Origin: Caballeronia sp. Lep1P3
GTDB lineage: Bacteria > Pseudomonadota > Gammaproteobacteria > Burkholderiales > Burkholderiaceae
DNA: 64,000 nucleotides
Assembly: GCF_022879595.1 (NCBI RefSeq)
Contig: NZ_CP084268.1
Span: forward strand, 124,001 to 188,000
Direction of reading: 5' to 3'
How positions within the stretch are numbered: the stretch's first letter is position 1; each line of letters starts with the position of its first letter. Shown here in pieces: positions 18,389-64,000 of the stretch. The notes beneath the pieces are model-generated. The model saw only the letters and a program-made list of their open reading frames with translations. It ran no database searches and had not been told where the DNA came from. The translations under genes and the position numbers were made by a program.

Positions 18389-18507
18389 CTTCCCGTTCGG
18401 AACGTTGGCGCTTCCGAAACATCGCTTTACGAATACTGCGGAATCTCTAATGTGATGTCAAACGCCGGCGCACTGCAAGACCGGCATCGATACACGGAGA
18501 CAGCACC

Positions 18508-19449: not shown

Positions 19450-19450
19450 G

Positions 19451-20608: not shown

Positions 20609-20696
20609 GGATCGACGCAGGACCGAAGCATGAATGCGCGACAGGCACCGGACATAAGCGTGCCGTCGTGCGAGCCGATGTCATCAGGAGACAACG

Positions 20697-25921: not shown

Positions 25922-26230
25922 ATGAACAAGCCGTCGCCGAAGGCAGCGGTGCTGTGCGCTTGCGCCGTTCTCCTCGCGGGATGCGTCGCCGCCGGCGCGC
26001 CCGACAATGGAACGCATCTGACGCAGACGGAGTGCCGCGATCTCGCCGCGCTGCGCACGAATGCACCACCCACGATGGGCGAGCATCAGAGCGAACTGGC
26101 CGCACTGAGGAAAGCCGGCTACGACCCGTCGCCGTGGTACGACCCGTACTACCCGGAGGATTTGCAGGCGGCGCAGCGTCAGGTGGACATCTGGTTTCAG
26201 ACGGATTGCCAACGCACGCGGCCCGACTGA
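25922..26230 (+). CDS. DUF4148-like lipoprotein
   Basis: 102 residues from ATG 25922 (GGAGA upstream). Lipoprotein signal with lipobox LLAGC near residue 21, so the mature protein is lipid-anchored. The body matches the small Burkholderiales DUF4148 pattern: ELAALRKAGYDPSPWYDPYYPEDLQAAQRQV. The function of the family is unknown. Confidence 0.75.
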   Translation: MNKPSPKAAVLCACAVLLAGCVAAGAPDNGTHLTQTECRDLAALRTNAPPTMGEHQSELAALRKAGYDPSPWYDPYYPEDLQAAQRQVDIWFQTDCQRTRPD

Positions 26231-26326
26231 TTCACCCGTTCGCGCCTAAGGCACGCGGATTGCGGCCCGCCGCTGCACCGGCCGCAGCGCCCGCGGGCGG
26301 CGAACGCTCAACCTGGAGAGATCACC

Positions 26327-26560
26327 ATGAACATCGCAGTGAAGCGCATTCTTGCGTCTGCATTGGCATTAGGCGTTTCCACCGTCGTACTCGCGCAAGG
26401 CAATGCTGGCGGCGTACCGGGCGGCAATGGCGCCGGTCAGGGCGGCGTGGGAGTCGGAACGCCGAACGGAAACGGCGAGACAGGCACGCCTTCCGGTCCG
26501 GCGGGCAAGCACTCGACCCTTCCGAGAAGGCATCATCACAAGGCGAAGAAATCGAGCTAG
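26327..26560 (+). CDS. Small Gly/Asn-rich secreted protein
   Basis: 77 residues. GGAGAG precedes the ATG. Signal peptide with cleavage near VLA-QG (about 23), then a low-complexity Gly/Asn/Pro repeat region and a basic His/Lys tail (RRHHHKAKKSS). Only about 95 bases after the lipoprotein gene, so both may share a transcript. I do not recognise a functional family; a small envelope or matrix protein is possible. Confidence 0.6.
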   Translation: MNIAVKRILASALALGVSTVVLAQGNAGGVPGGNGAGQGGVGVGTPNGNGETGTPSGPAGKHSTLPRRHHHKAKKSS

Positions 26561-26746
26561 CGCGCGCTTCCGCTCGCCGGCGTTCCGGACCGCGATGCAC
26601 AGCATCGACGTCCGGTGCGCCGCTCCGTCGTTCCCGACTCGCCTTAGCTGCACAACCCCCGCACCATTGGCACTTTCCTCACTGTCCGCAATATGCAAGC
26701 GGCGGCATGCTTGCGTACTTCTCAACGCTTACAGGGCAAGCGTTTC

Positions 26747-46973: not shown

Positions 46974-46997
46974 ATGAATTCCCTACATCGCCTATGA
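46974..46997 (+). CDS. Seven-codon mini-ORF coupled to andR
   Basis: ATG at 46974 encodes MNSLHRL and ends at TGA 46995-46997, overlapping the andR ATG by ATGA. andR itself has no Shine-Dalgarno, while the mini-ORF has a weak AGGCAG. It could deliver ribosomes to andR by reinitiation. Supported by arrangement only. Confidence 0.3.
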   Translation: MNSLHRL

Positions 46998-47950
46998 CAC
47001 GCCCCGAGTTTCGTCTGCGCGCATTGCGACGGCATCGCCTCTTCGAATCGGCCGATCTCGACGAGACGCGCGAACTCATCTCGCGCGTGATGCAGCCGCA
47101 TTCGCTCGTGCCGCAAGGCGAAGTGAACGGCCGCTCGCATATGGACTTCGTGCGCGTGGGCAGGCTCGGCATTGGGACGATCGCGTTCGGCGGCGCGATT
47201 CGCGTCGATGTCGAAGCCGTCGACGGCTATTACCTGATGATGTTTTGCGTTGCAGGCGAAGCGGAAGTGAAGCTCGCGGGCAAGACCGTGACGGTGAACG
47301 CGCAGACCGGCATCATCCGCGCGCCGGGCGAGCCGTTCAGCGCATCGCTGTCGGCGGGCTGCGAGCAGCTCGTCATGCGCATCGATCCGGCGTCGCTTCA
47401 CGCGAATGCGTCGATTGCCGCGCGCAAGGAAGGTGCGCTGCTTTCGCTATCGGGCGGCACGATGCGCGCGTGGAAAGAGCAGTTGAAGTTCGTCGCGAGT
47501 TCGCCGGACTTGCTGAATCAGGCATCGAGCGATGCGCGCGTCGGTGCGAATCTGGAATCGCTGCTGGTGAGTCTCATCGCCATCGACGAAGCGGCGCAGA
47601 CGCACGCCATCGGCCGGCTTGCGCCCGCGCCGCTTTTCATTCGACGCGCCATCGAGTTCATGCAGGCCAATCTCGCCTCGCCCATTCAGCTCGTCGGTAT
47701 CGCGAGTGCCGCGGGCGTGCCGGTGCGCACGCTGTCGGAGGGTTTCTTGCGGTTCAGGTCGGCGAGCCCGATGCTCGTCTTGCGTCACATGCGTCTCGAT
47801 GCGGCGCGCGCGGCGATACGCGCATCGACTTCCGATTTGCCGATTTCATCGATCGCGCTCGATTACGGCTTCACGCATCTGGGCCGCTTCGCGCAGGTCT
47901 ACAAGGAACGTTTCGGCGAATTGCCTTCGGTCACGCCGCGCCGCGCATGA
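46994..47950 (+). CDS. andR: AraC/XylS-family regulator of anthranilate dioxygenase
   Basis: 318 residues. N-terminal cupin-like ligand domain (about 30-190, AraC-binding-like, HMDFVRVGRLGIG), C-terminal double helix-turn-helix (about 215-315: LVGIASAAGVPVRTLSEGF and ISSIALDYGFTHLGRFAQVYKERFGELP). Divergent from andAc, as with AndR of the known Burkholderia locus, where it activates the operon in response to anthranilate. Confidence 0.85.
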   Translation: MTRPEFRLRALRRHRLFESADLDETRELISRVMQPHSLVPQGEVNGRSHMDFVRVGRLGIGTIAFGGAIRVDVEAVDGYYLMMFCVAGEAEVKLAGKTVTVNAQTGIIRAPGEPFSASLSAGCEQLVMRIDPASLHANASIAARKEGALLSLSGGTMRAWKEQLKFVASSPDLLNQASSDARVGANLESLLVSLIAIDEAAQTHAIGRLAPAPLFIRRAIEFMQANLASPIQLVGIASAAGVPVRTLSEGFLRFRSASPMLVLRHMRLDAARAAIRASTSDLPISSIALDYGFTHLGRFAQVYKERFGELPSVTPRRA

Positions 47951-50042: not shown

Positions 50043-51664
50043 AGCGGTCCGCCATCGAGCCGCGCGGCATTCGCCAGACGATGTCCGAGCTGCATACGTG
50101 GGCGGGACTGCTCGCCGGCTGGATGCTTTACGCGATGTTTCTCACCGGCACGGTCAGCTATTTCAAGGACGAAACGTCGCAATGGATGCGCCCCGAGCAG
50201 CCGCATGCGCAGAGCACGCCGGATGCGGCAGAGGCCGCGCAGCGCGTCGCCGACACGCTCGGCAAGATGGCGGCGGGCAGCACGCAATGGAGCTTCGAGT
50301 TGCCGTCCGCGCGCACGAACGTGATGAACGCGTTCTGGCGCATGCCGCGTTCGTCGCCCGGCAAACGCGTGTTCGGCGAAGCCGCATTCGATCCATCGAC
50401 CGCGCACGCGACCACCGCGCGCGATACGTTCGGCGGCGAGTTCTTCTATCGCTTCCACTTCCAGTTCTACTACATGCCGCCGCTTGCGGGACGCTGGATC
50501 GCGGGCGTCTGCGCGATGTTCATGCTCGTCGCGATCGTGAGCGGCGTGATCACGCACAAGAAAATCTTCGTGGACTTCTTCACGTTTCGCTGGGGCAAGG
50601 GCCAGCGTTCGTGGCTCGATGCACACAACGCGCTCTCGGTGTTCGGCCTGCCCTTTCACGCGATGATCACGTATACGGGCCTCGTCACGCTCATGACGAT
50701 GTACATGCCGTGGGGCGCGCAGACCGCGTTCAATACACCCGCCACGCAAGAGGCAATGACGACGCAGCTAAGCGCCTTCATTCAGCCGGGAAAGCCGAGC
50801 GGCAAGCCCGCCGCGCTCGCGCCGGTCGATGCGATGGTCCGCGCCGCGCAAGCGCATTGGGGCAAGACCAACGTCGGACGCGTGACGATCACGCTTCCCG
50901 GCGATGCCAACGCGCGCGTGGCCGTGACGCGAGCCGAAGCCGCGCGTGTGTCGATGAGCCCGCAATACATGCTCTTCGATGGCGTATCGGGCAAGCTCAT
51001 CGAAGTGAGAGAGCATGTCGGCGGCGCGGCAGAGACGCGCGGCGTGCTTTACGCGCTGCATCTCGGGCGTTTCAGCGACCTGCAATTGCGCTGGCTCTAT
51101 TTCATCGCGAGTCTGGGCGGCACCGCGATGGTCGGCACCGGCCTCGTGATGTGGACGGTGAAGCGCCGTCAAAAGCTGCACGATTCATCGCGTACTCATG
51201 TGCGCTTCTGGCTCGTGGAGCGGCTGAACGTCGCGACCATCGCGGGCTTGTCCGTTGCGATGACGAGCTATCTATGGGCCAATCGTCTATTGCCATCGAC
51301 ACTCGCGCATCGCGCGGACGCTGAAATCAACGTGTTTTTCGCGGTATGGGGCGCGGCACTGCTTCATACGCTCATGCGCCCCGCGCGACGCGCGTGGATC
51401 GAACTGCTGTGGCTTGCGGCCTCGCTGCTCGCGCTGCTCCCTGTGCTCGATGCAATCACGACGCAATGTCCGCTATGGCGCAGTATCGCGCAAGGCGACT
51501 GGGTGTTCGCCGGCTTCGATCTGACAATGTGGGCCTTCGCCGCGCTCCATGCGATGCTCGCCGTGCGCGTCACGCGTCATCGTTCGCAGACGAAGACTCG
51601 CGCGGCAGAACGCGCGCGCGTTGCCGGCGTTGCCAGCGATGCGCGCGAAAAGCAAAACGCATGA
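50039..51664 (+). CDS. PepSY-domain iron-regulated membrane protein (PiuB type)
   Basis: 541 residues from ATG 50039 (ATGA overlap). PepSY-associated transmembrane protein: ELHTWAGLLAGWMLYAMFLTGTVSYFKDE (first helix and loop, shown in part: LHTWAGLLAGWMLYAMF), HFQFYYMPPLAGRWIAG, WLDAHNALSVFGLPFHAMITYTG and several C-terminal helices. Proteins of this family sit with TonB-dependent receptors and are thought to reduce or release iron from siderophores in the periplasm. No receptor gene is adjacent here. Confidence 0.88.
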   Translation: MKRSAIEPRGIRQTMSELHTWAGLLAGWMLYAMFLTGTVSYFKDETSQWMRPEQPHAQSTPDAAEAAQRVADTLGKMAAGSTQWSFELPSARTNVMNAFWRMPRSSPGKRVFGEAAFDPSTAHATTARDTFGGEFFYRFHFQFYYMPPLAGRWIAGVCAMFMLVAIVSGVITHKKIFVDFFTFRWGKGQRSWLDAHNALSVFGLPFHAMITYTGLVTLMTMYMPWGAQTAFNTPATQEAMTTQLSAFIQPGKPSGKPAALAPVDAMVRAAQAHWGKTNVGRVTITLPGDANARVAVTRAEAARVSMSPQYMLFDGVSGKLIEVREHVGGAAETRGVLYALHLGRFSDLQLRWLYFIASLGGTAMVGTGLVMWTVKRRQKLHDSSRTHVRFWLVERLNVATIAGLSVAMTSYLWANRLLPSTLAHRADAEINVFFAVWGAALLHTLMRPARRAWIELLWLAASLLALLPVLDAITTQCPLWRSIAQGDWVFAGFDLTMWAFAALHAMLAVRVTRHRSQTKTRAAERARVAGVASDAREKQNA

Positions 51665-51951
51665 CGCATGCCCTTGTTCTCGTGCTCTGCGCCGTATCGT
51701 TCGCGTGTCTCGCGCTCGCGACGGAGCGCGTGCAGCACGCGCTTTTCGCGCGTTCCATTGCGTGTGGATACGCGCGCTCCCTTCGTATCGCAGGCGCTTG
51801 CGGTTTGCTGCTTGCGCTGTGGCTCGACGTCGCCGACGAAGGCTGGGCGCTCGGCCTCGTTCGTTACAGCGGATGCACGACGCTTGCAGCCGGCTTGATC
51901 TATCTCGCGCTGATTGCCTGTGCGCGACGTGCCGGGAAAAAGCGGCTATGA
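51661..51951 (+). CDS. Small membrane protein, DUF3325-like
   Basis: 96 residues from ATG 51661, overlapping the PepSY stop by ATGA. Three hydrophobic segments (LVLVLCAVSFACLAL; IAGACGLLLALWL; LAAGLIYLALIACA). Completes the standard DUF3649-PepSY-DUF3325 triad. Confidence 0.75.
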   Translation: MTHALVLVLCAVSFACLALATERVQHALFARSIACGYARSLRIAGACGLLLALWLDVADEGWALGLVRYSGCTTLAAGLIYLALIACARRAGKKRL

Positions 51952-51958
51952 CCATTGG

Positions 51959-53167
51959 TTATAGCCAGTGCGTCTCGAAGCGGCACTCGGTCAGCGGCAC
52001 GCATCCATCGCGCGTCAGGAGCACCTGCTGTTCGAGCTTCACACCCTCGCTTCCGCCCTCTTCGCCGATGTAACTCTCGACGCACAGCGTCATGCCCGCT
52101 TCGAACACGCCGTCATAGCCCGCTTCGTGCCAGTCAATCGGATGCGCGATGGACGGATACTCGTCCACCATGCCGATGCCATGCGCGACACAGCTATAGC
52201 GATTCGTGACGTAGATGTCGGGTATCTTCCACGCCTTCTCGGAGAACTCGCGAAACGCCATGCCGGGCCGCAGCAGGTCCATGTTGAAGTGCACCTGCGA
52301 ATAAGCGCGCTCGTAGAGCCTGCGTTGGGCGTCGGTGGGCCGCGTGTCGCCGACGGTCCATGTGCGCGAAATATCGGAGCAGTAGCCGTGCGGCCCGACC
52401 ATGTCCGTGTCGAAGGCGAGCAACTCGCCTTGCCGAAGCATGCGCGGCGAACATTCGTGCATCCACGGATTCGTGCGATCGCCCGAAGCCAGCAGCCGCG
52501 TTTCGATCCATTCGCCGCCATGCCGGATGTTCTCGTGATGCAGATGCGCCCATAGGTCCTGCTCCGTGATGCCGGGCCGCAGTTCGCGACGCATGCGCTC
52601 GATGCCCGCCTCGCATGCACGCAGCGATTCCCCGATCAATGCGATTTCGCCGCTCGACTTGACCGTGCGCGCCATCTCCATCATGGCTTGCCCATCCATG
52701 AGCGCGAAGCCGTGCCGGACGAGGCAAGCAGCGCCGACCGCATCGAGACGGTCCACGGCGAGGCGCAATTCGCCGGGTGCGCGGCAACGCATGACATCGG
52801 CGATCTCCGCAGCCCAAAGTTCGGCGCGTTGCTGTGCATCGTGGCCCGCGCTGAAGAAGGTCCAGCCAAGCGCGCTGCGCAATTCGAAGTCCAGCGCGAT
52901 GCCGTCCCACACATGCTCGCAACGATGAAACTCCCAGCCGATGACACGGCCGTCCGCAAACACCATCACGTAGCGCGACGGATTGCGTCCGCTCCAGATT
53001 TGCATGTTCGACGTATCGGTGGCGTACCGGATGTTGACCGGGTCGTACAGCAGAATCGCAGAGCAATCGCTTCGGCGCAGCATCGCCAGCACACGCGACA
53101 GACGATACGCGCGAACGTCGGCCATCATGTGATCCGTGGACGCTTGAATCTCATCGTTCGTCATCAT
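51959..53167 (-). CDS. M24-fold metalloenzyme, DddP-like (candidate DMSP lyase or related onium enzyme)
   Basis: 402 residues, creatinase-type N-terminal domain plus pita-bread domain. Metal ligands D253, D255, D265, H329, E364, E379. The motif after H329 is HGIGMVDEYP: Asp335 replaces the second His found in M24 peptidases. As I recall the DddP structures (metal ligands D295, D297, D307, H371, E406, E421; catalytic D377; Y366), every interval matches, including Y324 and D335. Two bases... it lies 17 bases after the reductase stop and ends the Rieske operon. A lyase or C-N/C-S hydrolase on a methylated osmolyte is more likely than peptidase activity. Confidence 0.7.
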   Translation of the reverse strand: MMTNDEIQASTDHMMADVRAYRLSRVLAMLRRSDCSAILLYDPVNIRYATDTSNMQIWSGRNPSRYVMVFADGRVIGWEFHRCEHVWDGIALDFELRSALGWTFFSAGHDAQQRAELWAAEIADVMRCRAPGELRLAVDRLDAVGAACLVRHGFALMDGQAMMEMARTVKSSGEIALIGESLRACEAGIERMRRELRPGITEQDLWAHLHHENIRHGGEWIETRLLASGDRTNPWMHECSPRMLRQGELLAFDTDMVGPHGYCSDISRTWTVGDTRPTDAQRRLYERAYSQVHFNMDLLRPGMAFREFSEKAWKIPDIYVTNRYSCVAHGIGMVDEYPSIAHPIDWHEAGYDGVFEAGMTLCVESYIGEEGGSEGVKLEQQVLLTRDGCVPLTECRFETHWL

Positions 53168-53184
53168 CTGTCCTCCTTAGCGTT

Positions 53185-54303
53185 CTACAGATCCAGAACG
53201 ATGTCGGAGGTCGGGCGGCTGCAGCATAGGAGCCGGAAGCCCTTGGCAATCTCGCGTTCGCGGATACCGCCGTTGTGCTTCATATCGACATCGCCTTCAA
53301 GCAGTTTCGTCTTGCACGTCCCGCACACGCCCTGACTGCACGATGACGGTATCGCGACGCCCGCCCTGCGTGCCGCGGCAAGCACGGTCTCCGATGCGTT
53401 CATCGCGAACGTCCTCGACGACTTCGATAGCGTCACGTTGAAGATGCCCTCGGCCGCGCATGCAGGCTCGGGCGCAACGCCAGCGGTGATATCGAAGCTC
53501 TCCTGGTGATAGCGCGCCGGATCGTGGCCGCCCGCGCGCAACACATCGCGCACGGCGCTCATGTAGCCCGCCGGACCGCAGGTGAACACATCGCGCTCGG
53601 CGTAGTCCGGAAGCCATGCGGACAAGAGTTGGAGGCTCAGGCGCCCGGTCGCACCGGACCACATGGGTTCATCGCCCGTTCCTTCGCAGACGAAGAAGAC
53701 CTTCAAGCGCGGTGAGAGCGCGGCGAGCCGTTCCAGTTCGCGGCGAAAGACGATGTCCGCAGGCGTGCGCGCGCTATGCACGAACGCGATGTCGCGATCG
53801 AGACCGAGATCGATGCTCGCGCGCGTCATCGACATGAGCGGCGTAATGCCCGACCCAGCAGAGAGATAGAGCAGCTTCTGCGCCGCCGATGCGCTCGGCG
53901 TGAACACGCCCGATGGACCATACGCCCGCAGTTCGCAGCCCGCCTTCATGGTGTCGTGAAGCCAGTTCGACATGACGCCGTCAGGCACGCGCTTCACCGT
54001 GATCGATACCAGCCACGGACGCGTGGGCGGCGACGAAATCGTGTAGCAGCGCTCGACCGATTGCCCTTGCACGTGCGCCGATACGGTCATGAACTGGCCC
54101 GGCTCGAAGCGCACGGGCACGCCGTCTTCGGTGCGGAACTCGAAGGTCCTCACGTCGTGCGTTTCGTCGATCACGCGGCAGCATGTCAACGTCTGCTGCT
54201 CGCCGCTTGCCCAGGCCCGCGTGCCGGTGTCCCATGTGCGAGGGCTGCATAGCCGGTCGAAGGTTTCGGGCATGCGCAGGAAAGCCGTATCGATTGCGTT
54301 CAT
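53185..54303 (-). CDS. GbcB-like FAD/[2Fe-2S] reductase of the Rieske oxygenase
   Basis: 372 residues from the ATG at 54303, chosen for AGAGG eight bases upstream and its place just after the Rieske stop. Order: FAD domain with RCYTISSPP, NAD domain with LSAGSGITPLMSM and FTCGPAGYM, then a C-terminal plant-type [2Fe-2S] ferredoxin with CSQGVCGTC and a final Cys in LLCCSRP. This FAD-NAD-2Fe2S order is that of GbcB/StcB-type partners of betaine demethylases. Confidence 0.88.
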   Translation of the reverse strand: MNAIDTAFLRMPETFDRLCSPRTWDTGTRAWASGEQQTLTCCRVIDETHDVRTFEFRTEDGVPVRFEPGQFMTVSAHVQGQSVERCYTISSPPTRPWLVSITVKRVPDGVMSNWLHDTMKAGCELRAYGPSGVFTPSASAAQKLLYLSAGSGITPLMSMTRASIDLGLDRDIAFVHSARTPADIVFRRELERLAALSPRLKVFFVCEGTGDEPMWSGATGRLSLQLLSAWLPDYAERDVFTCGPAGYMSAVRDVLRAGGHDPARYHQESFDITAGVAPEPACAAEGIFNVTLSKSSRTFAMNASETVLAAARRAGVAIPSSCSQGVCGTCKTKLLEGDVDMKHNGGIREREIAKGFRLLCCSRPTSDIVLDL

Positions 54304-54316
54304 CGGATTCGCCTCT

Positions 54317-55573
54317 TTAGATTCCATGTGCATGCAGTCTCGCGGCATACCACTGCGAGAACTGTTCGACGTAGACCTCGGTGAAAGGCGAAAACACGCC
54401 GGGACGATAAGCCGGGTCCTGCGTGCCCTGATGCGTTATTTCGACGAGGTGCTTGTCCTGCGCATTCGTCGCGGCCCACACTTCGGTCAGTTCCTTGACG
54501 GTGTAATCGACGCCTTCCACCGCGTCCGCATGAACGAGCCACTTCGAACGCACGAGCGTTCTGTCGGGTGCAAGCGGAATGATGTAGGTCACCACTGCGT
54601 GATCGCTCATGACGTGCGTCCACGAGTTATGCGTCCATAGATGGTGGTCGCCGAGATCGCGCCGCGTGAGCTTGCCGAAGAGCTTCGCGCTCGCGACCTT
54701 CGTGCTCACGGTCTGCGACTCGCCGGCGCCGGCAATCACGAGTTGCTGCGTGCGAAATTGCGTCACCGCATCTTCGCCGAGCCATTCGACCGTATCGCCG
54801 ATGAACCCGTCGCGTTGCCAGCTTGCCTGAGATGCCGCATTGCGCGTCTTGTAGTCGTCGAGCGCGCGAAGCGATTCATCGCTCAACTCTTCCGCGCAAA
54901 AGCCGAAGTCTTCCGGCAGAAACGATGCGGTCAGTTCGGGATGCGTCGCCTGACAGTGATAGCACTCGCGGTTGTTTTCGACGACGAGCTTCCAGTTGCC
55001 GTTCTCGACGATCTCCTGCTCGAACGCGATCTTCGTGTGTTGCAGGTCATAGGGCGCGAGGCGCGGCGTGAGCGTATCGGCGAGCTTCGCGATGTCTTCG
55101 GGCGCGCGCTCGTCGAGGCACACGAAGATGTGCGCGCCGATCACCTTCGTATGCACGGGCATCAGGCTGCGGCAGGTGCGGTCGAAGTCGCGGCCCATGT
55201 GGCCCGCGTGGCGCAGCGAACCATCGAGATCGTAGGTCCACTGGTGATACGGACAAACGAGCATGCCGACGGTCGACTTGCCCGCTTCTTTCAGGCGCGC
55301 GCCGCGATGCCGGCACACGTTGCGATACGTGCGGATGTTCTCGTCGTCGTCGCGCACGATCATGATCGACGCACGCCCGATATCAACGGTCGATACGTCG
55401 CCGGACTCGGGTACGTCCGCCGTCACGCCGACGAGTATCCAGTGCTTGTGAAAGAAGACATCGACATCGTTGTCGAACACGTCGTCACGGCCGAACAGTT
55501 CGCCCGGCATGCCGTGGCCCGGCTCGCGGCTGCGAATCAGTTCGCCATGCGTTTTGATGTGCACTTCGGACAT
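54317..55573 (-). CDS. Rieske oxygenase, GbcA/stachydrine-demethylase type
   Basis: 418 residues. Rieske ligands C87, H89 (NVCRHRG) and C107, H110 (CPYHQWTYDLDG); mononuclear iron site in NNRECYHCQATHPEL (E203, H206, H211). The ECYHC..H pattern and the adjacent GbcB-like reductase are those of oxygenases that demethylate glycine betaine, proline betaine (Stc2) and carnitine-like compounds. It would remove a methyl group from an onium substrate as formaldehyde. A LysR-type palindrome lies just upstream. Confidence 0.87.
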   Translation of the reverse strand: MSEVHIKTHGELIRSREPGHGMPGELFGRDDVFDNDVDVFFHKHWILVGVTADVPESGDVSTVDIGRASIMIVRDDDENIRTYRNVCRHRGARLKEAGKSTVGMLVCPYHQWTYDLDGSLRHAGHMGRDFDRTCRSLMPVHTKVIGAHIFVCLDERAPEDIAKLADTLTPRLAPYDLQHTKIAFEQEIVENGNWKLVVENNRECYHCQATHPELTASFLPEDFGFCAEELSDESLRALDDYKTRNAASQASWQRDGFIGDTVEWLGEDAVTQFRTQQLVIAGAGESQTVSTKVASAKLFGKLTRRDLGDHHLWTHNSWTHVMSDHAVVTYIIPLAPDRTLVRSKWLVHADAVEGVDYTVKELTEVWAATNAQDKHLVEITHQGTQDPAYRPGVFSPFTEVYVEQFSQWYAARLHAHGI

Positions 55574-55679
55574 CGTTTTCTCCGCGTCTCAGGGGTGCGG
55601 GAATTCGAATGCTCCCGCGATGAACCCGAGTATTGGAGCAACGCAAAACGACGTCAACGCGCTTTATATGCAGCCTGGC

Positions 55680-55694
55680 ATAACTTCAAGTTAT
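55680..55694. promoter_or_regulatory. LysR box (T-N11-A palindrome) upstream of the Rieske operon
   Basis: ATAACTT-C-AAGTTAT, a perfect 15-base palindrome that contains T-N11-A (T 55681, A 55693), the consensus form of LysR sites. It lies 107-121 bases before the Rieske gene and between it and the LysR gene at 55712, so that regulator is the likely binder. Confidence 0.65.
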
Positions 55695-55711
55695 ACGTGG
55701 GCGCGGCTCGC

Positions 55712-56650
55712 TCAGAACGACTCGAGCGCAATCGATTCCGCGCGCAAGCCATCGATCAGACCGTCGATGGCCGGCGTGATCGTGCGTCCGTGCGGCACGA
55801 TCACGTAGTACGAATCGGGCGACTTATACGTTGCCACCGGAAGCCTCACGAGTTCGCGCGCTTGCAGCAGGTCGTGCACCAGCCGCCCCCAGCCGAGCGC
55901 GATGCCTTCGCCGTATCGCGCGGCGGCTATGGCATCCGTGTAGAGCGTGCATCGCAGCGCGAACTGAAGCCTGAGCGGGCGATGCCCGAGCGCGTTGAAC
56001 CACTCGTCCCATGTCATCCAGCCTTCGGATGTCGAGTCAGACTCGATGAGCGGCTCGTTCGCGAGGTCCGCAATCGACGCGGGCTTGCCTCGCGCGCGCA
56101 ACCATGCCGGCGAACAGACGGGAAAGACTTCCTCGTCGAAGAGAAAGGTCGCGCTGCCGTCCGCCCATGCGCCGTTGCCGAAGCGCACGACAGCATCGAT
56201 CTCCTTGTGGCGCAGGTCCGCGGTGAACATCTGCGTCGAGAGTTGCAGCCGAAGCTCGGGCATGGCCTCCTTGAGCCGCGAGAGGCGCGGCAAGAGCCGA
56301 AAGTGCGAGAACGCCGACGTTGCGGCAACCACGAGTTCCTGCTGGCCGGGATCGCTGACGAGCCGGTCGAATACGCCAGCGATCTTCTGCATCGACTCGG
56401 CCACGACGAGATACAGCTCGCGGCCTTCGTCCGTCAGTTCGATCGCGCGATGCAGCCGGCGAAAGAGCCGGCACCCGAGCGTGTCTTCGAGAAACTTCAC
56501 CTGCCGGCTGACTGCCGCCTGCGTCACGCCCAGTTCGTGCGCGGCCATCGTGAAGCTCTGCAAACGCGCGACGGCTTCGAACTCGACGAGCGCGGTCACC
56601 GAAGGAATCAGCCTGCGATAGCCTCTCGTTCGCGTGGATGTCGTTTTCAT
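55712..56650 (-). CDS. LysR-family transcriptional regulator
   Basis: 312 residues from the ATG at 56650; the frame from 56743 would add an Arg-rich stretch overlapping the cupin gene. Winged helix LQSFTMAAHELGVTQAAVSRQVKFLEDTLG, GcvA-like effector domain. Probably controls the Rieske/reductase/M24 operon through the palindrome at 55680-55694. Confidence 0.85.
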   Translation of the reverse strand: MKTTSTRTRGYRRLIPSVTALVEFEAVARLQSFTMAAHELGVTQAAVSRQVKFLEDTLGCRLFRRLHRAIELTDEGRELYLVVAESMQKIAGVFDRLVSDPGQQELVVAATSAFSHFRLLPRLSRLKEAMPELRLQLSTQMFTADLRHKEIDAVVRFGNGAWADGSATFLFDEEVFPVCSPAWLRARGKPASIADLANEPLIESDSTSEGWMTWDEWFNALGHRPLRLQFALRCTLYTDAIAAARYGEGIALGWGRLVHDLLQARELVRLPVATYKSPDSYYVIVPHGRTITPAIDGLIDGLRAESIALESF

Positions 56651-56696
56651 TTTCGCGGCGACGTGAGTGACTCTGAATGCGTCTCTTCGACGCCGG

Positions 56697-57050
56697 CTAA
56701 AGCGTCGATTCGCTGCCCGTGACGACGAGCACCGTGCAGCCATCGCGCGAGTGCGACCAGTGCGCGGTTCCCTTCGCGAAGGTCACGATCTGGCCGGCGG
56801 TGAAATCCGTGCCGTCCTGATCGGTGTACACGCCATCCATGATGAAGAGCAATTCGGTCGATTCATGGGTATGAAAGAGGGACTTCGCCCCGGCATCGAG
56901 CCGCATCCAGTAGCTCGTCCATGCGCCGCTATCGTCGTCGGCGACGGGAATGATCCAGAAGCCGGGATGACGTTCTCCTTCGATGAGCATCGGTTTCCAC
57001 GCGTCTTTCTGCACGCTGTGAACCGTGCGGCCCTGCGGTGTCTCTGTCAT
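56697..57050 (-). CDS. Single-domain cupin protein
   Basis: 117 residues. One cupin barrel: metal-site HTHESTELLFIMDGVY (His, His, Glu) and the later His in GTAHWSHS. Small cupins of this form often bind or modify small carboxylates. Between two LysR genes on the same strand as the Rieske operon; its precise role in the locus is unknown. Confidence 0.78.
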   Translation of the reverse strand: MTETPQGRTVHSVQKDAWKPMLIEGERHPGFWIIPVADDDSGAWTSYWMRLDAGAKSLFHTHESTELLFIMDGVYTDQDGTDFTAGQIVTFAKGTAHWSHSRDGCTVLVVTGSESTL

Positions 57051-57069
57051 GTGTTTTATCGTCGGATGA

Positions 57070-58083
57070 TTACGACACGGCGCGTTCCTCGCTGCGCGCG
57101 TTATCCTCGCGCCAGCTCGCCATCATGTCCTTCACTTCGCCCACGAGCCAGGTGCGAAAGAGCTTGTACTCCGGCCGCTCGACCGCGTTCTTGTGCGTGA
57201 TGAGATAGTGATACCGGTCGGCGAACACGAGACTTTCCTGCACGGGCCGCACGAGAACGCCCTGTTCCACCTGACGATGCACGAGGTGATGCCAGCCGAG
57301 CAGCGTGCCCTCGCCTTCTTCCGCTTGCGATACGAGCAGGCGATAGTCGTTGCTCTCGAGATGATCGGTTTCGACCATTCGTTCGCCGCCTTCGCCTTGC
57401 TGGAACCAGTTGCGCCATACGCGCCAGTCGACGTGCTCGCACACTTGCGTGCGGCCAAGCGGCGACAGATTGAGCGTTGGATATCTGAGCAGATCGAGCG
57501 CGCCCAACTTCCTTCCGCGATACTGCTCCTCGAAGAACCGCTTGCTGCAAACGGGATAGACGACATCGTGAAACAGGCGCTCGACTTCATACTCCGCTTC
57601 GCGAGGCGGGTTCTTCGTGATGATGACATCGGGATCGATGAGCCTGTCGAACTCCATGAAGTGATCCGTCACGATGACATTGAGTTTCACATCGGGAAAG
57701 AGCTTCCTGAATGCCTGAAGCCTTGGCGCGAGCCACAGCGCCGAGAAGGTATGCGACACGCAAACCGTCAGCGCCGCGCGACCGGCACGTCGCACTGTCT
57801 CGACGGTTTCCGCGATATTCATGATCGACAGATACGACGCGTTGTACAAAAGGCGTCCCGCTTCGGTCAACGCGATGTGTCTTCCCGAGCGGTCGAAGAG
57901 CGCCACTTCGAGCGAATCCTCGAGCTCCTTGATTTGCCGGCTAATGGCGGCTTGCGTCACGCAAAGCACTTCGGCGGCTTGCGTGAAGTTCTCGTAGCGC
58001 GCCGCTGTGACGAAGCATTTGAGCGCGCGCAGCGAAGGCATTTGCGCGAGCAGGCGGTCGGTAAAGATCTGCTTTTTCTGCAT
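57070..58083 (-). CDS. LysR-family transcriptional regulator (GcvA-like)
   Basis: 337 residues from the ATG at 58083 (AGAGG upstream); ATG at 58116 or 58041 are alternatives. Winged helix YENFTQAAEVLCVTQAAISRQIKELEDSL, effector domain from about residue 110. Second LysR in this block, probably for the ProC/ALDH/oxidase/DHDPS/glyA operon. Cupin gene begins 19 bases downstream. Confidence 0.84.
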   Translation of the reverse strand: MQKKQIFTDRLLAQMPSLRALKCFVTAARYENFTQAAEVLCVTQAAISRQIKELEDSLEVALFDRSGRHIALTEAGRLLYNASYLSIMNIAETVETVRRAGRAALTVCVSHTFSALWLAPRLQAFRKLFPDVKLNVIVTDHFMEFDRLIDPDVIITKNPPREAEYEVERLFHDVVYPVCSKRFFEEQYRGRKLGALDLLRYPTLNLSPLGRTQVCEHVDWRVWRNWFQQGEGGERMVETDHLESNDYRLLVSQAEEGEGTLLGWHHLVHRQVEQGVLVRPVQESLVFADRYHYLITHKNAVERPEYKLFRTWLVGEVKDMMASWREDNARSEERAVS

Positions 58084-58221
58084 GGTCTGGAGCCTCTGTA
58101 GCGCGGCAAAAGCCATCGCGTCAGATGCCGTCCTCGCGGAACGCCTGACCGATGGACTCGTTGTTGCTTATCTTACTGCCGCATTTTTATTCCGACGTGC
58201 CTTGCTCGCAAGCGCCCCGAG

Positions 58222-58992
58222 TCATGCGTTCGCGTTCAGTCGCTCGGCTACCGCGTTCATCGCGCTGCCGATCTGCGCAAAAAAGCCCTCGGATTCGAGC
58301 TTCGAATGCATGAGCGCGTTGATGCCGCCTTCGGTCGTGCACTGCATCGCGAGATCGGCGAACGAGTCGTGGCCAAGCTGCGCCATCTGCGCTAGCCCCG
58401 AGTAATAACCCGACAAAAAAGCGCGTGCACGGTCGTAGGGTACGCCCTCTTTCACAAGCCACTTCGCTTGTGCCTCGACGAACGTGTAATACGTCGACAT
58501 GGTCGCGGTCGCGGCGGAGAAGGCATCGAATTGACGTTCTTCGCTCACTTCCACCGCCGCGCCGACAGCCGAGAACAGCGCGGCGGCATGTTCATTCGGC
58601 GGATGAATCACCGTGCTGCCGAAGCCATGCGCCGTCGCGGGCAACGGAATGGCGCGGACGATCCGCGCTCCCGCGCCGATGCAGCGCGCAAGCTGCTCGA
58701 TCGTCAGTCCGGCAACGAAGCTGATGACGGTGTGCTCCGGCCGGAACGCGAGCGCGTGAAGCACATCCGTCGCGACGCCCGGCAATACCGCGATGCACGC
58801 GACATCGCACGCATCCAGCACGCGCTGATTGGATTCGCAGACGCGAACGCGATCGTCCAGCCTCGCGAGTTCCGCCGCCGTTTCAGCGTTGCGCGGCGAA
58901 AGCGCGATGCTTTCAACGTTCAAGCTCGAACGGCAGAGGCCCGTGACGACCGCCTTCGTGATGCCGCCGGAGCCGATAAAGCCTATATTCAT
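58222..58992 (-). CDS. Pyrroline-5-carboxylate reductase-like protein
   Basis: 256 residues. N-terminal NAD(P) fold GFIGSGGITKAVVTGL; C-terminal helical dimerisation domain with TTEGGINALMHSKLES where ProC has the PGGTT segment. ProC reduces cyclic imines (pyrroline-5-carboxylate) to proline; homologues act on related imines. Last gene of the glyA operon. A ring-imine reductase fits a proline-betaine or hydroxyproline-type route. Confidence 0.78.
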   Translation of the reverse strand: MNIGFIGSGGITKAVVTGLCRSSLNVESIALSPRNAETAAELARLDDRVRVCESNQRVLDACDVACIAVLPGVATDVLHALAFRPEHTVISFVAGLTIEQLARCIGAGARIVRAIPLPATAHGFGSTVIHPPNEHAAALFSAVGAAVEVSEERQFDAFSAATATMSTYYTFVEAQAKWLVKEGVPYDRARAFLSGYYSGLAQMAQLGHDSFADLAMQCTTEGGINALMHSKLESEGFFAQIGSAMNAVAERLNANA

Positions 58993-59034: not shown

Positions 59035-60531
59035 TCAGTCCGCGAGCTTGATCCATGTCGTCTTGAGCTCGCAATACTGGTCGTGCGCGTAGACAGACTT
59101 GTCTCTTCCGCCGAAGCCGGACTGCTTGAAGCCGCCGAAAGGCGTCGAGAGATCGCCTTCGCCGAAGCAGTTGACCGTGACCGTGCCCGCGCGAATGCGC
59201 GATGCGATTTTGTGCGCGTGGTTCACGTTGTCCGTCCAGAGCGATGCAGCGAGGCCATAGCACGTATCGTTGGCAATGCGCACCGCATCCTCGATATCGT
59301 CGTATTCGATGACGCACAGCACCGGCCCGAACACTTCGTCGCGCGCAATGCTCATCTCGGGCGTCACGTTGTCGAAGATCGTCGGCTCGACGAACCAGCC
59401 GCCGCTTTGCGAAAGCGCCGCGTTGCCGCCGCACACGAGATGCGCGCCTTCGGCCTTCGCCTTCTCGATGTGCGATAGCACCTTGTCGTAATGGCCGGCT
59501 TCGATGAGCGCGCCGAGTTTCACGTCGGGATCGAGCGGGTCGCCGGTGCGCCAGCCTTCGAGCACGCCCTGAATCTTTTCGAGCAACGCGGCTTTCATGC
59601 TCGACGGAACGATGATGCGCGAGCCCGCGCTACAGTTCTCGCCCATGTTCCAGAACGCGGCGGCGACCGCGTTTTCCGCGACGGCATCGAGATTCGCGAC
59701 ATCGGGCAACACGACTTGAGGATTCTTGCCGCCGCATTCGAGCACCACGCGCTTCAGGTTCGTATCGGCGGAATAGCGCAGGAAGCGTTTGCCCGTTTCA
59801 GTCGAGCCCGTGAACGCGACGAGGTCCACATCGCGATGAAGACCGAGCGCCTGCCCCGCGCCTTCGCCGAAACCCGTCACCACGTTGAACACGCCCGCAG
59901 GCAAGCCGGCTTCGATGGCGAGATCCGCGATGCGCAGCGTGGAAAGCGATGTCTGCTCCGCCGGCTTGATGATGACGCTATTGCCGACCGACAGCGCCGG
60001 CCCGATCTTCCACGCAAGCATGAGCGCCGGAAAGTTCCACGGCAGCACGCCTGCGACGACGCCTATCGGCTCGCGCGTAATCATGCTGACGACACCCGCA
60101 CCCGATGGCGAGAGCGCGTCATAGCGCTTGTCCGTGACTTCCGCGTGCCATCGGATGCACGCGGCCGACTCGGGAATATCGAGGCTCATGCATTCGCTGA
60201 CAGGCTTGCCGGCTTCGAGCGCTTCCAGAAGCGCGAGTTCTTCCGCATGTTCGTCGATCAGTTGCGCGAGCCGCAGCAACACGCCTTTGCGATGCGCGGG
60301 CGCGGCCTTCGACCAGACGCCGCTTTCGAATGCGTTGCGTGCTGCGGCGACCGCGCGGTCCACGTCGGCCGCTTCGCATTTCGCGATCTTCGCAAGCACT
60401 TTGCCTGTAGCGGGATTCAGCGTGTCGAAGCTCGCTTCAGATGCGGCGGCGCACCGTTTTCCTTCGATGAACGCGCGGCCATCGAGCGATACGCGCCCGG
60501 CCATCTGCTTCCATTCTTCGTATGTGCTCAT
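59035..60531 (-). CDS. NAD(P)-dependent aldehyde dehydrogenase (PuuC-like)
   Basis: 498 residues, complete ALDH. PWNFP (active-site Asn), FTGSTETGKR cofactor loop, general-base Glu in LECGGKN and nucleophile Cys in MGENCSAGSR. Closest in pattern to gamma-glutamyl-aminobutyraldehyde dehydrogenases; with a DHDPS-family enzyme beside it, an alpha-ketoglutarate-semialdehyde-type substrate is also plausible. Confidence 0.9.
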   Translation of the reverse strand: MSTYEEWKQMAGRVSLDGRAFIEGKRCAAASEASFDTLNPATGKVLAKIAKCEAADVDRAVAAARNAFESGVWSKAAPAHRKGVLLRLAQLIDEHAEELALLEALEAGKPVSECMSLDIPESAACIRWHAEVTDKRYDALSPSGAGVVSMITREPIGVVAGVLPWNFPALMLAWKIGPALSVGNSVIIKPAEQTSLSTLRIADLAIEAGLPAGVFNVVTGFGEGAGQALGLHRDVDLVAFTGSTETGKRFLRYSADTNLKRVVLECGGKNPQVVLPDVANLDAVAENAVAAAFWNMGENCSAGSRIIVPSSMKAALLEKIQGVLEGWRTGDPLDPDVKLGALIEAGHYDKVLSHIEKAKAEGAHLVCGGNAALSQSGGWFVEPTIFDNVTPEMSIARDEVFGPVLCVIEYDDIEDAVRIANDTCYGLAASLWTDNVNHAHKIASRIRAGTVTVNCFGEGDLSTPFGGFKQSGFGGRDKSVYAHDQYCELKTTWIKLAD

Positions 60532-60546
60532 GCTTGACCTCGTCGA

Positions 60547-61878
60547 TTAAAGTTCGGCGCCTGCCGAGAGTTCCTTGAACCAGATGGCCGTCGACACCGC
60601 GATGTCCGAGATGGGACGCCCCGGCAAGAGACGCGGCCGCGGATGACTGAGCGCCAGATCGATCAGTTCGTTCGAGTGCCCGAGCGCATGTTCCGCGATC
60701 AGCTTGCCGCTCGACGATCCTCTGCTAAGGCCGAGTCCGTTGCAGCCGATGGATTGATACACGCCATCCTCGCGCTTGCCGAAGAGCGCTCCGCTGTTGG
60801 CCGACAGGCACAGCGCACCGCCCCATGTGTATTCGAACTCGACGTCTTTCAGCATCGGAAAGCGCCTGTCGAAAGACCGTTGATGCAAGGCCTTCGCTTT
60901 AGCGAGATCGACATCGGACACGCTCACGTCCGGCCTGAACGCGAAGTGATTGCGCACGCAGATGCGATCGGTGATCAGCCGGCGCACAGTCGATCCAACC
61001 GGATCGGCGGGAATCAGCGCCCACGATGCATGACCGCCGAGCGCGGCCACTTCGTCCCGATTCATCACGCGCGTCATGGATGCGAAGGTGAAGACGGGCA
61101 GCAATCCGTTCGCGTCACGGCCGAAGGTCGCGGCATAGGAGTTGGTGCACAGAATGACCTGCCTGGCCGCGATCGATCCTTCAGCGAACGTAAGCGTCTT
61201 CTCGCCGGGACCGCCGTCCATTCGCTTCACTGCGCTTAGTTCGAATACCTTAACGTTTTGCGGAAGCGCCGCCGCTAGGCCGCGCATCAGCGCAGCGGGC
61301 TGCACGGTGCTGCAACCGGGCGTGTGAATCGCGCTGTGATAGAACGCGGTTCCAGTTACGCCCGCGATTCCAGCTTGGTCGAGCCATTGGAATGGTTCGC
61401 CAATCCGTTTCAGACCTTCCGCGAAGTGTTCGAGCGCGGTCTTGCCCCGTTTGTTGACGGCCGCGTGGTACTTGCCGTCGTCGCGCCAGTCGCAGTCGAT
61501 ACCATGTTCGATCACGGCAGCGCGCACATAGTCGATGCCATGACGCTGCAAGCGGATGTCCGCCTTGTCCGCATCGACGCTGCGCGAATAGCTTTCGCTG
61601 CTGATGTCGTGCGGCAGATCGACGAAGAACCCCGAATTGCGGCCCGCCGTGCCGCGCCCGATGCGGTCGGCTTCGACGAGCGCAATCGACGCATCCGGGC
61701 TTAGCTCCGCAAGACGCCGGGCCGCGCACAAGCCCGTAATGCCTCCACCGATGACGACCCAGTCGAAGCGAAGATCGGACTCGACCCTGACGGCATTCGC
61801 GGGCGGCGGAAGACTTTCCCACCAGCCGTTAATCCCGTCAGGCGTCGGCACGCGCCCGAAGTCTTGATTGGCACGCAT
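60547..61878 (-). CDS. FAD-dependent amine/amino-acid oxidase (DadA/PuuB type)
   Basis: 443 residues from the ATG at 61878; the in-frame GTG at 61887 overlaps the upstream stop and has the Shine-Dalgarno too close. DAO fold: FDWVVIGGGITGLCAARRL, GRGTAGRNSGFF, TWGGALCLSANSGALFGKREDGVY and GCNGLGLSRGSSSGKLIAEH. Such enzymes oxidise secondary amines, gamma-glutamylputrescine, sarcosine or N-methylproline-like imino acids. It could remove the second N-methyl group or open the ring imine after Rieske demethylation. Confidence 0.87.
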   Translation of the reverse strand: MRANQDFGRVPTPDGINGWWESLPPPANAVRVESDLRFDWVVIGGGITGLCAARRLAELSPDASIALVEADRIGRGTAGRNSGFFVDLPHDISSESYSRSVDADKADIRLQRHGIDYVRAAVIEHGIDCDWRDDGKYHAAVNKRGKTALEHFAEGLKRIGEPFQWLDQAGIAGVTGTAFYHSAIHTPGCSTVQPAALMRGLAAALPQNVKVFELSAVKRMDGGPGEKTLTFAEGSIAARQVILCTNSYAATFGRDANGLLPVFTFASMTRVMNRDEVAALGGHASWALIPADPVGSTVRRLITDRICVRNHFAFRPDVSVSDVDLAKAKALHQRSFDRRFPMLKDVEFEYTWGGALCLSANSGALFGKREDGVYQSIGCNGLGLSRGSSSGKLIAEHALGHSNELIDLALSHPRPRLLPGRPISDIAVSTAIWFKELSAGAEL

Positions 61879-61883
61879 CGAAT

Positions 61884-62774
61884 TCACTGCCCCTTGCGCA
61901 GCAACGGTTCGACCACGGAAGCGAAGGCCTTGCGCTCCTCATCGGTGAGCGTGCCGAGCGGCGCGCGCGCATTGCCCACAGGTACGCCCGCCAGTTCGCA
62001 GCCGTATCGCACGTACTGGATGAACTTGCCGCTGCGCTCGAGCAGTTCCAGCACCGGCAGCAGTTCGGCCATGAGCCGGCGTCCTTTGGCGAAGTCGCCT
62101 TTGGCGCACGTTTCCAGAAGCTCGACGTGCGACTCGGGGATGAAGTTGGCCGCCGCGCCCACCCAGCTCTTCGCGCCCCACGCGAAGAACTCGAGCGCCT
62201 GATCATCCATGCCGCAACTGAGCACGAGCCGGTCCGGGAAGTGCGTCGCCAGATGATGCAAGTGACCGATGTCGCCCGTGCTCTCCTTCATCGCCCTGAA
62301 ATTAGGCCGTTCGAGCAGCTTTTCGAGCACGGCATCGCTGATTTCGGTGCCCGTGCGCGCCGGAAAGTTATAGAGCATGACCGGCAGATCGACGGCGTCA
62401 TCGACCTTGAGGAAGTGCGCGAGCAGTTCATCCTGCGTGGGCTGCGCGTAGTACGGCGTCGCTAACAGCAGGGCCGACATACCCGCCTGCTTGGCGGCAA
62501 GGCCGAGGTGAATCACGTCCTTCGTCGTCGTCGCGTTGATGCCTGCGGTGAGCACCGTCTTGCCGCCGACCGCATCCGTGACCGTATCAAACGTGCGGAT
62601 GCGCTCGTCGAGCGTCAGCGCGTAATACTCGCCCGTGGTACCACCCACACCCAGTCCCGTCAGACGGCCGACGAGACCCTTCGCGTGTTTCGCGAGCAGC
62701 GCGTGATCGATCTCGCCGTCACCGTTGAAAGGCGTAACCAGCGGTGCATGTACTCCTTCGAAGCTGACCATCAT
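61884..62774 (-). CDS. DHDPS/NAL-family Schiff-base aldolase or deaminase
   Basis: 296 residues, GAGGAAAA before the ATG. TIM barrel with GTTGE (45-49), Y135 and R140 (YNFPARTG) and Schiff-base K163 (AMKESTGD). Besides dihydrodipicolinate synthase, the family includes pyrroline-4-hydroxy-2-carboxylate deaminase of hydroxyproline breakdown. As it is co-operonic with ALDH, DAO-type oxidase and a ProC-like reductase, a catabolic role is much more likely than lysine synthesis. Confidence 0.87.
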   Translation of the reverse strand: MMVSFEGVHAPLVTPFNGDGEIDHALLAKHAKGLVGRLTGLGVGGTTGEYYALTLDERIRTFDTVTDAVGGKTVLTAGINATTTKDVIHLGLAAKQAGMSALLLATPYYAQPTQDELLAHFLKVDDAVDLPVMLYNFPARTGTEISDAVLEKLLERPNFRAMKESTGDIGHLHHLATHFPDRLVLSCGMDDQALEFFAWGAKSWVGAAANFIPESHVELLETCAKGDFAKGRRLMAELLPVLELLERSGKFIQYVRYGCELAGVPVGNARAPLGTLTDEERKAFASVVEPLLRKGQ

Positions 62775-62827: not shown

Positions 62828-64000
62828 TCAAACGAGCGCGTCCGCGGGCGAATAGATCGGAAACTGGCTGCACAGGTCGCGCACGCGGCTGCGCACGGCG
62901 CGCTCGACGTCCGCATCGCCCTGCGAATTGCGCTGCAGCGCGCCCAGTACTTCGAGAATCATCTCGCCGATCAGACGGAACTCCTTCTCGCCGAAACCGC
63001 GCGACGTGCCCGCTGGCGTGCCGAGCCGGATGCCGGACGTGACAGTCGGGTTTTCCGTGTCGAACGGAATGCCGTTCTTGTTGCACGTAATGCCCGCGCG
63101 CTCCAGCGCCTTTTCCGCCTGCGTACCCGTGAGGCCCTTCGGTCGAAGATCGAGCAGAAGCAGATGATTATCGGTGCCGCCCGTGACGAGCCGCACGCCG
63201 CCTGCACTCAGCACGTCGCCGAGCGCGACCGCGTTCTTCAGCACCTGATCGATATACGTTTCGAATTCCGGCCGCAGCGCTTCGCCAAAGGCCACCGCCT
63301 TGCCCGCGATGACGTGCATCAACGGACCGCCCTGAAGGCCCGGAAACACCGCTGAATTGATTTTCTTCGCGATGTCGCCGTTATTCGTCAGAATGAAGCC
63401 GCCGCGCGGACCTCTTAGCGTCTTGTGCGTCGTGGAAGTGACGACGTCCGCAAAGCGCATCGGATTCTCGTGATGGCCTGCCGCGACGATGCCCGCGATA
63501 TGCGCCATATCCACCATCAGAAGCGCGCCCACGCTATCGGCGATCTCACGGAATGCCGCGAAATCCAGTGCGCGCGGATATGCAGAGTAGCCCGCGATGA
63601 TGAGTTTCGGGCGATGCTCCTCGGCGATGCGCCGCACATCGTCGTAATCGATGCGATACGTCTCACGACCGACGCCGTACTGCACTGCGTTGAACCACTT
63701 GCCCGACAGCGCGGGACGTGCGCCGTGCGTGAGATGACCGCCTGCGTCGAGGGCCATGCCCATGACCGTGTCGCCCGGCTTGAGCAGTGCGAGCATGACT
63801 GCGCCGTTCGCCTGTGCGCCCGAATGCGGCTGCACGTTGGCGAAGTCGGCGTCGAAGAGCGCCTTCACGCGATCGATGGCGAGCGCTTCGATGCGGTCCA
63901 CATGATCGCAGCCGCCGTAGTACCGCTTGGACGGATAGCCTTCCGCGTACTTGTTGGTGAGAACGGTGCCCTGCGCCTGCATGACGGCCGCGGATACGAT
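62828..64000 (-). CDS. glyA: Serine hydroxymethyltransferase, N terminus cut by the window end
   Basis: At least 390 residues; the frame stays open to base 64000 (upstream codons read IVSAAV, the conserved ENIVS... region), so about 35 N-terminal residues are missing and the ATG at 63982 is internal. [24 protein letters not shown] and the PLP-Lys segment [13 protein letters not shown] are diagnostic. It interconverts glycine and serine with methylene-tetrahydrofolate. In a demethylation operon it can absorb C1 units and glycine. Probably a second, catabolic copy rather than the housekeeping glyA. Confidence 0.92.

Follow-up and report, generated by a model that had tools for sequence, protein, structure and literature searches.

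A DddP-like M24 protein at the end of an apparent betaine-catabolic gene run in Caballeronia

DddP is a DMSP lyase of the M24 fold, and one survey lists as ratified four enzymes from the Roseobacter group, two Oceanimonas doudoroffii enzymes and that of Aspergillus oryzae (PMC8520302). Its six metal ligands, as named for the Roseobacter denitrificans structure (PMC4108388), are D295, D297, D307, H371, E406 and E421, while according to a review the sulfonium is bound by a Trp and a Tyr (PMC5395565). The Trp of that review presumably corresponds to W95, and the solved structures include, as indicated by their PDB titles, the mutants Y366A (4s00) and D377N (4s01). The ectoine hydrolases (DoeA/EutD), creatinases, prolidases and PepP share the M24 fold with DddP. 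In the current work, a window of 64,000 nucleotides of the genome of Caballeronia sp. Lep1P3 was analysed, in which an earlier note had pointed out an M24 protein with a DddP-type metal site.

Fold, metal site and relation to DddP

The gene in question (51959..53167, minus strand) encodes a DddP-like M24 pseudo-peptidase of 402 aa (P0001; PF00557, 113.5 bits), the reading frame of which was confirmed as open over these coordinates, and is the last gene of the run described below. In HMMER alignments to RlDddP and RdDddP, as well as in an alignment of the family, D253, D255, D265, H329, E364 and E379 fall on the six DddP ligands in the order given above, and Y324 and D335 fall on DddP Y366 and D377, each residue being where the earlier note had placed it. 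The codons of D253, D255 and D265 (FDTD...D), as derived from the ORF start, occupy 52373..52411 (minus strand), and the motif HGIGMVDEYP (residues 329-338; 52154..52183, minus strand) contains the ligand H329 and the putative general base D335. This motif has an Asp at the position where the aminopeptidase of the same genome (L169) carries the His of HExP, which bears out the claimed replacement of the peptidase His. Furthermore, W58 aligns with the conserved Trp that is W95 in DddP numbering.

Among PDB sequences, P0001 matches the DddP entry 4rzy at E 2.7e-96, compared to 3.6e-13 for the best peptidase, and as judged from sequence the match to the DddP structures is far beyond chance. The AlphaFold model of P0001 has a mean pLDDT of 86.1, with values below 50 at residues 56-62 and 232-237, W58 and W235 included. 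Fold comparison of this model with four DddP entries gave a TM score of 0.89 at 37-38% identity, while scores were mostly 0.64-0.74 for prolidases, 0.70-0.72 for creatinases and 0.70-0.73 for the ectoine hydrolase EutD, the identity to DoeA/EutD, creatinase, prolidase and PepP being 14-22% by fold alignment. In both sequence and fold, P0001 is thus nearest, among solved structures, to the DMSP lyases RlDddP and RdDddP, with prolidases, creatinase and ectoine hydrolase well behind. Five M24 matches above the Pfam cut-off are present in the Caballeronia genome, among which P0001 is the sole DddP-like one.

Although P0001 shares with DddP (NF043017; PDB entries 4rzy, 4s00, 4s01 and 4b28) the fold, the six ligands, the equivalents of Tyr366, Asp377 and Trp95, and 40% sequence identity to both RlDddP and RdDddP, it remains under the cut-off of the NCBI DddP equivalog model NF043017 (396.9 bits against a cut-off of 600, with two annotated DddPs at 849.8 and 870.4). 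It also lacks the N-terminal loop-helix appendix of DddP (residues 10-50), for which the open frame, at 405 aa, is too short and which is present in L066, L067, L073 and L092. Across 18 DddP-clade, 136 Burkholderiaceae-type and 30 gammaproteobacterial sequences, 95 aligned positions are conserved and identical, while 25 are conserved yet different from DddP, some of which flank metal ligands (from DddP to the window type: C376 to V334 or A, A407 to S365 and D422 to Q380). The chemistry may therefore have shifted.

A tree was built from 57 rows, including 50 of the gathered family rows, with six DoeA proteins and one PepP as outgroups; rows that were long or awkward (L080, L123, L075, L117 and L125) as well as the PepP L169 were omitted. 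The ratified DddP kinds were represented by Roseobacter-type rows, the fungal DddPs and the two from Oceanimonas doudoroffii not being among the rows, and the tree held neither a creatinase nor a prolidase proper. The proteins with both the Trp and the Asp (W/D type) formed a single group of 38 rows (support 100/98). Of these, 15 make up a DddP side (97/90) and 23 a window side (86/64), the latter with a core of 22 rows (100/99) from Burkholderiaceae, from Pseudomonas, Oceanospirillaceae and Halomonas, and from Rhizobium. On this free tree the DddP group (100/100) is separate from that window group. In AU tests, joining P0001 alone to the 12 DddP-type rows was rejected (p 5.25e-05), a constraint which also pulls P0001 away from its own close relatives and does not move the whole window clade; placing the 12 DddP-type and the 22 window rows in one clade was not rejected (p 0.081), though such a clade is absent from the free tree. 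A protein from Oceanimonas sp. CHS3-5 (P0237) is 81% identical to the Vibrio-type L073, which falls on the DddP side. By the tests available, namely score, appendix and clade, P0001 would not be DddP, and its reading as DddP itself was not upheld.

Regarding the placement inside a prolidase or creatinase clade that the earlier note had named as the contrary outcome, P0001 grouped on the tree neither with the ectoine hydrolases nor with the one PepP, and creatinases were compared by fold, at the TM scores given above. The six DoeA rows group apart, and P0001 scores 31.9 bits against a cut-off of 575 with the ectoine hydrolase model NF038259. The DddP-like M24 protein encoded on pSymA of Sinorhizobium meliloti (L064) and its relatives have the same six ligands and the Tyr as P0001, and L064 has an MttB-like gene and ProU-type transporter genes nearby; these proteins differ in having Gly for the Asp and Tyr for the Trp, and belong to another clade.

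The specificity of the metal site was assessed in 229 DddP-like sequences, a sample biased toward neighbours of the window protein as 119 of them came from the first protein search. All six ligands are kept in 225 of these, the remaining four being L080, with one substitution, and three sequences whose frames are truncated or interrupted, and therefore the metal site is a mark of the wide DddP-like family rather than of DddP. The ligand intervals (2-10-64-35-15), which the earlier note had reported to be the same as in DddP, are so in P0001; they are not specific to DddP, being exact in 171/229 sequences, branches without the Asp included, and the question of their generality is in this part answered against that note. 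W58 and D335 (W95 and D377) occur together in 200/229 sequences, while in 20 a Gly at 335 is paired with Y, F or N at 58, and nine show other combinations or gaps. In the aligned rows of PepP (one) and ectoine hydrolase (six), D255 is absent and the D255/D335 pattern is not seen. Caballeronia is a land-dwelling genus, and the non-marine genome type to which the earlier note drew attention is not exceptional, a relative being found, own genome included, in 32 of 58 genomes of the genus Caballeronia (E <= 1e-30) and in 41 of 398 genomes drawn from the phylum (E <= 1e-50).

The gene run ending in the M24 gene

The run lies entirely on the minus strand, and in the direction of transcription it begins in the window with a serine hydroxymethyltransferase gene (SHMT; 62828..64000, cut by the window end). 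Directly upstream of it, beyond the window and on the same strand, the run is headed by quaternary-amine ABC transporter genes of the ProU/choline type (L217), namely those for a binding protein of the choline/glycine-betaine type and a ProV-like ATPase, together with a probable permease ORF. SHMT is followed by genes for a DapA/DHDPS-family lyase (61884..62774; 188.7 bits, under the DapA cut-off of 206.15), a DAO-type FAD oxidase (60547..61887; under the cut-off of every NCBIfam model matched), an aldehyde dehydrogenase (59035..60531) and a pyrroline-5-carboxylate reductase-like protein (58222..58992; NF005063, 280.9 bits with a cut-off of 254). Then come a LysR-type regulator (57070..58116), a small cupin (Cupin_7; 56697..57050) and a further LysR-type regulator (55712..56743), these and the aldehyde dehydrogenase being assigned by profile match. 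A Rieske oxygenase of the betaine N-demethylase kind (54317..55573) and a GbcB-like ferredoxin reductase (53185..54348; NF058606, 348.3 of 500 bits) precede the M24 gene; judging from the starts of its relatives, the reductase probably begins at an internal ATG about 45 nt further in. The spacing suggests that the run is a single transcript, and a promoter and terminator scan of 51600-58300 returned no more sites than were found in shuffles. A nearly identical gene order, with a glycine betaine binding protein first, is present in Paraburkholderia largidicola.

The Rieske protein matches NF058607 (GbcA) at 396.3 bits, below the cut-off of 670, and its three best PDB matches are 3n0q, 3vca and 4qup, in agreement with the betaine-type Rieske demethylase that the earlier note had placed beside the M24 gene. 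We take 3vca to be the proline-betaine demethylase Stc2 and 4qup to be a relative of it. The window Rieske protein thus belongs to the same subfamily as GbcAB and Stc2, while its score sets it apart from GbcA. The genome has a second GbcA/B-like pair, located beside an OYE-type gene (L218) and itself under the GbcA cut-off (451.9), and therefore the pair in the window need not serve glycine betaine.

Profile searches of neighbouring genes named none as a DMSP or acrylate gene and recognised no epimerase in the run. An ortholog of DddD was not found in the genome, which yielded only partial CoA-transferase matches (12 places, 27-59% identity, each covering at most about 270 of 838 residues); an epimerase-like gene that is 39% identical to the Rhizobium phaseoli 4-hydroxyproline epimerase is located elsewhere in it. 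A second and unrelated Rieske system is encoded nearby in the window, comprising AndAc, the large subunit of anthranilate 1,2-dioxygenase (45537-46808, minus strand; 840.6 bits with a cut-off of 750), and its divergent regulator AndR (46994-47950, plus strand; 459.3 bits with a cut-off of 350).

Recurrence of the arrangement across genomes

The neighbourhoods of 105 family loci were compared, the flanks of which differ in length, a few being short, and 36 of which entered the set through their close relationship to a single Pseudomonas protein. A Rieske_W-like match (tblastn E <= 1e-10 over at least half of the query) lies near the M24 gene in 43/56 window-side loci, compared to 1/49 of the other family loci, the single exception being a Loktanella DddP locus. 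At L068, outside the clade, a ring-hydroxylating dioxygenase is annotated within 10 kb and was missed by the tblastn criterion. A literature search found no description of a DddP-like protein beside a Rieske demethylase.

Within the genus Caballeronia, an M24 gene product with at least 60% identity is found in 23 of 58 genomes (three as partial matches only) and the Rieske protein with at least 69% identity in 32. Both are present in 19 genomes, the M24 alone in four and the Rieske alone in 13 (Fisher p 0.001, ignoring shared descent), while for the M24 and the DapA-like protein the corresponding numbers are 19, four and six (p 1.4e-06, likewise ignoring shared descent). Accordingly, 6/25 DapA-positive and 13/32 Rieske-positive genomes of the genus have the module without an M24 of at least 60% identity.

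In several genomes, some of them of the same genus, the reductase-M24 pair is located apart from the Rieske cluster. At two loci of the genus (L127 and L129), an XRE-cupin type regulator and an acetyltransferase-like ORF, recognised by eye from the translation, precede this pair in the place of the Rieske gene. The Burk_A loci, in which the reductase is found in 12/13 and a Rieske_W match in 6/13, prompted the idea that M24 could be an O2-activating partner of the reductase; this was set aside since 11/11 genomes then searched have a Rieske protein of at least 70% identity somewhere. The gammaproteobacterial loci show a DapA-like match in 0/29, with BCCT carriers in 25/29, the FAD oxidase in 22, the aldehyde dehydrogenase in 21 and an EutQ-like cupin in 19.

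Some individual loci deserve mention. The plasmid of Pseudomonas sp. MPC6 (L063, typed as conjugative) carries at 18341-27864 an M24/Rieske cluster together with a CoA transferase and an iron alcohol dehydrogenase, in what appears to be an onium-catabolism island. In Marinobacter sp. X15-166B (L157), a window-type M24 gene has an internal stop and a DddP-side relative is split over two frames, this genome being the one among 19 searched with a match above 70% to the DddP-side query. A plasmid of Paracoccus denitrificans (L171, 11995-20670) brings together a gene of the DapA family with those for an aldehyde dehydrogenase, an FAD oxidase and a glycine-betaine/proline ABC system, and in the 25 kb seen neither an M24 nor a Rieske gene is annotated.

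Candidate substrates, chemistry and alternatives

The Rieske, reductase and M24 genes of Rhizobium phaseoli form a trio that lies next to a 4-hydroxyproline epimerase gene (580.7 bits with a cut-off of 376) and to genes for proline/glycine-betaine ABC transport, the FAD oxidase, the aldehyde dehydrogenase, the DapA-family protein, putA and formaldehyde detoxification; the epimerase was matched in three further Rhizobium-type loci. In addition, two clade-B Burkholderiaceae loci (L114 and L115) have nearby an Ldh2-type gene and a proline-racemase-family gene, the best model of the latter being t3LHyp dehydratase (325 and 334 bits, cut-off 550). These neighbours point to proline or hydroxyproline betaines, and a betaine of the (hydroxy)proline type is perhaps the most economical substrate class for the window M24. 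The gammaproteobacterial loci without a DapA-like match count against this hint. Considering that the gene ends a run of apparent betaine uptake and breakdown genes, the substrate of P0001 is probably a betaine rather than the marine sulfur compound DMSP. The reading that we favour, with a confidence somewhat above even, is that P0001 belongs to a group of di-metal, non-peptidase M24 enzymes near to and distinct from DddP, and serves a quaternary-amine (betaine) catabolic run; the earlier note's suggestion that the protein may act on an as yet unknown onium compound is supported as a possibility. Counting against the favoured reading are the genomes that have the module and lack the M24, the reductase-M24 pairs that stand away from the Rieske cluster, and the 25 positions at which the conserved residue is not that of DddP.

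By analogy with DddP, a short betaine or N-methylated amino acid would bind through its carboxylate to the dinuclear metal held by D253, D255, D265, H329, E364 and E379, while W58 and Y324 would pack against the onium and D335 would abstract the proton adjacent to the carboxylate to generate a carbanion. This carbanion could either expel a beta leaving group, as in a lyase of the DddP kind, or be re-protonated on the other face, as in a 2-epimerase. The Rieske oxygenase and its reductase would release the N-methyl groups in the form of formaldehyde, with SHMT possibly contributing to its assimilation, and the demethylated skeleton would be degraded by the FAD oxidase, the DapA-family protein and the aldehyde dehydrogenase. 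In proline betaine, DddP-type beta-elimination of the onium is impossible because the nitrogen sits on the alpha carbon, so that the outcome must differ, and this position of the nitrogen in alpha-amino-acid betaines is the main weakness of the preferred mechanism.

That P0001 is instead a true DMSP lyase, that is a terrestrial DddP releasing DMS and acrylate, appears quite unlikely to us. The full metal site with D335, Y324 and W58 and the identity of 40% to RlDddP and RdDddP are in its favour, all the more as a functional DddP of Fusarium graminearum is reported to be only 32% identical to RdDddP (PMC4108388), and one survey counts Pseudomonas and Mesorhizobium of marine sediments among the prominent carriers of dddP (PMC7039863). 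The Pseudomonas sp. MPC6 cluster, moreover, adjoins genes for a DddD-sized CoA transferase, a BCCT carrier, an alcohol dehydrogenase and a methylmalonate-semialdehyde dehydrogenase, and thus DMSP and betaine genes can share an island. However, this reading is opposed by the equivalog score, by the position outside the supported DddP group, by the missing appendix in a frame that could not accommodate it, by the failure to find a DddD ortholog in the genome and by the Oceanimonas sp. protein, which groups with the Vibrio-type DddP and not with the window protein. The M24 fold and the annotation of relatives as Xaa-Pro aminopeptidase or dipeptidase (PF01321 being listed for part) would agree with hydrolysis of a C-N bond in some peptide- or amidine-like conjugate, in the manner of prolidase, creatinase or ectoine hydrolase, but the Asp in place of the peptidase His, the extra ligand D255 that the aligned PepP and ectoine-hydrolase rows lack, and E-values and TM scores far worse to hydrolases than to DddP make it distinctly improbable.

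A 2-epimerase or racemase of (hydroxy)proline betaine, as an M24 analogue of the betaine epimerases of the enolase superfamily, is to be regarded as unlikely. A metal-bound carboxylate and a carboxylate base suit such chemistry, the run itself has no recognised epimerase, and an enolase-family hydroxyproline-betaine 2-epimerase and a proline-betaine racemase have been described (PMC5144071); the R. phaseoli locus, however, has the M24 and a 4-hydroxyproline epimerase both, with the epimerase also matched in the three further Rhizobium-type loci, and the Caballeronia genome carries its epimerase-like gene elsewhere. Displacement of the M24 by an enolase-superfamily (MLE-like) gene, which follows Rieske clusters without M24 in several genomes and was first read as a betaine epimerase, was considered as well and is unsupported: the idea was dropped because this gene, with its GntR- and MFS-like neighbours, looks by eye like glucarate dehydratase.

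Returning to the favoured assignment to betaine catabolism, the other branches of the DddP-like family have different neighbours. In contrast to the window-type loci with their Rieske genes, 12/16 DddP-clade loci have nearby a gene resembling haem-dependent oxidative N-demethylases (L086, the one member tested, matches PF11927), which occurs in 0/89 others; at L086, L090, L093, L094, L095, L099, L100 and L104 it is the next called ORF to the DddP-clade gene. HalD-like genes (PF23169, Halogenase D, in L124, the one member tested) are near 9/18 loci of a mainly Y/F-Gly group, compared to 3/56 window-side loci; at L076, L085, L096, L098, L102, L103, L122 and L124, such a gene immediately precedes the Gly-type M24 gene among the called ORFs. 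A mixed DddP-side group has MttB-like and DMGDH-like genes at 5/7 loci each and fatty-acid-desaturase-like genes at 4/7, while OYE-like genes are near 4/8 of the remaining family loci. These differing oxidative or methyl-transfer neighbours suggest a role in onium metabolism for the entire family. From gene neighbourhood we put forward, as a tentative and rather doubtful conjecture, that all DddP-like M24 proteins could be carbanion enzymes acting on onium carboxylates (betaines), each branch with its own demethylating oxygenase or methyltransferase (Rieske, haem N-demethylase-like, Fe/2OG HalD-like, fatty-acid-desaturase-like, OYE-like or MttB-like); on this view, DMSP cleavage as seen in DddP would be one specialised activity, or even a secondary one, and P0001 a not-yet-described nitrogen-onium lyase or epimerase.

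DddP-like M24 genes count as DMS-producing genes in metagenome surveys, one of which employs for DddP a permissive first step (HMM E-value 1e-30), with trees, residue checks and assays of two DddP sequences as later steps (PMC8520302). Should the Rieske-linked clade, which spans Burkholderiaceae, Pseudomonas, Oceanospirillaceae and Rhizobium, act on betaines and not on DMSP, loosely filtered counts would overstate the potential for DMS production. The favoured reading, if true, would add a further non-hydrolytic reaction to the M24 fold, for which the gene run narrows the candidate substrates to a short list.
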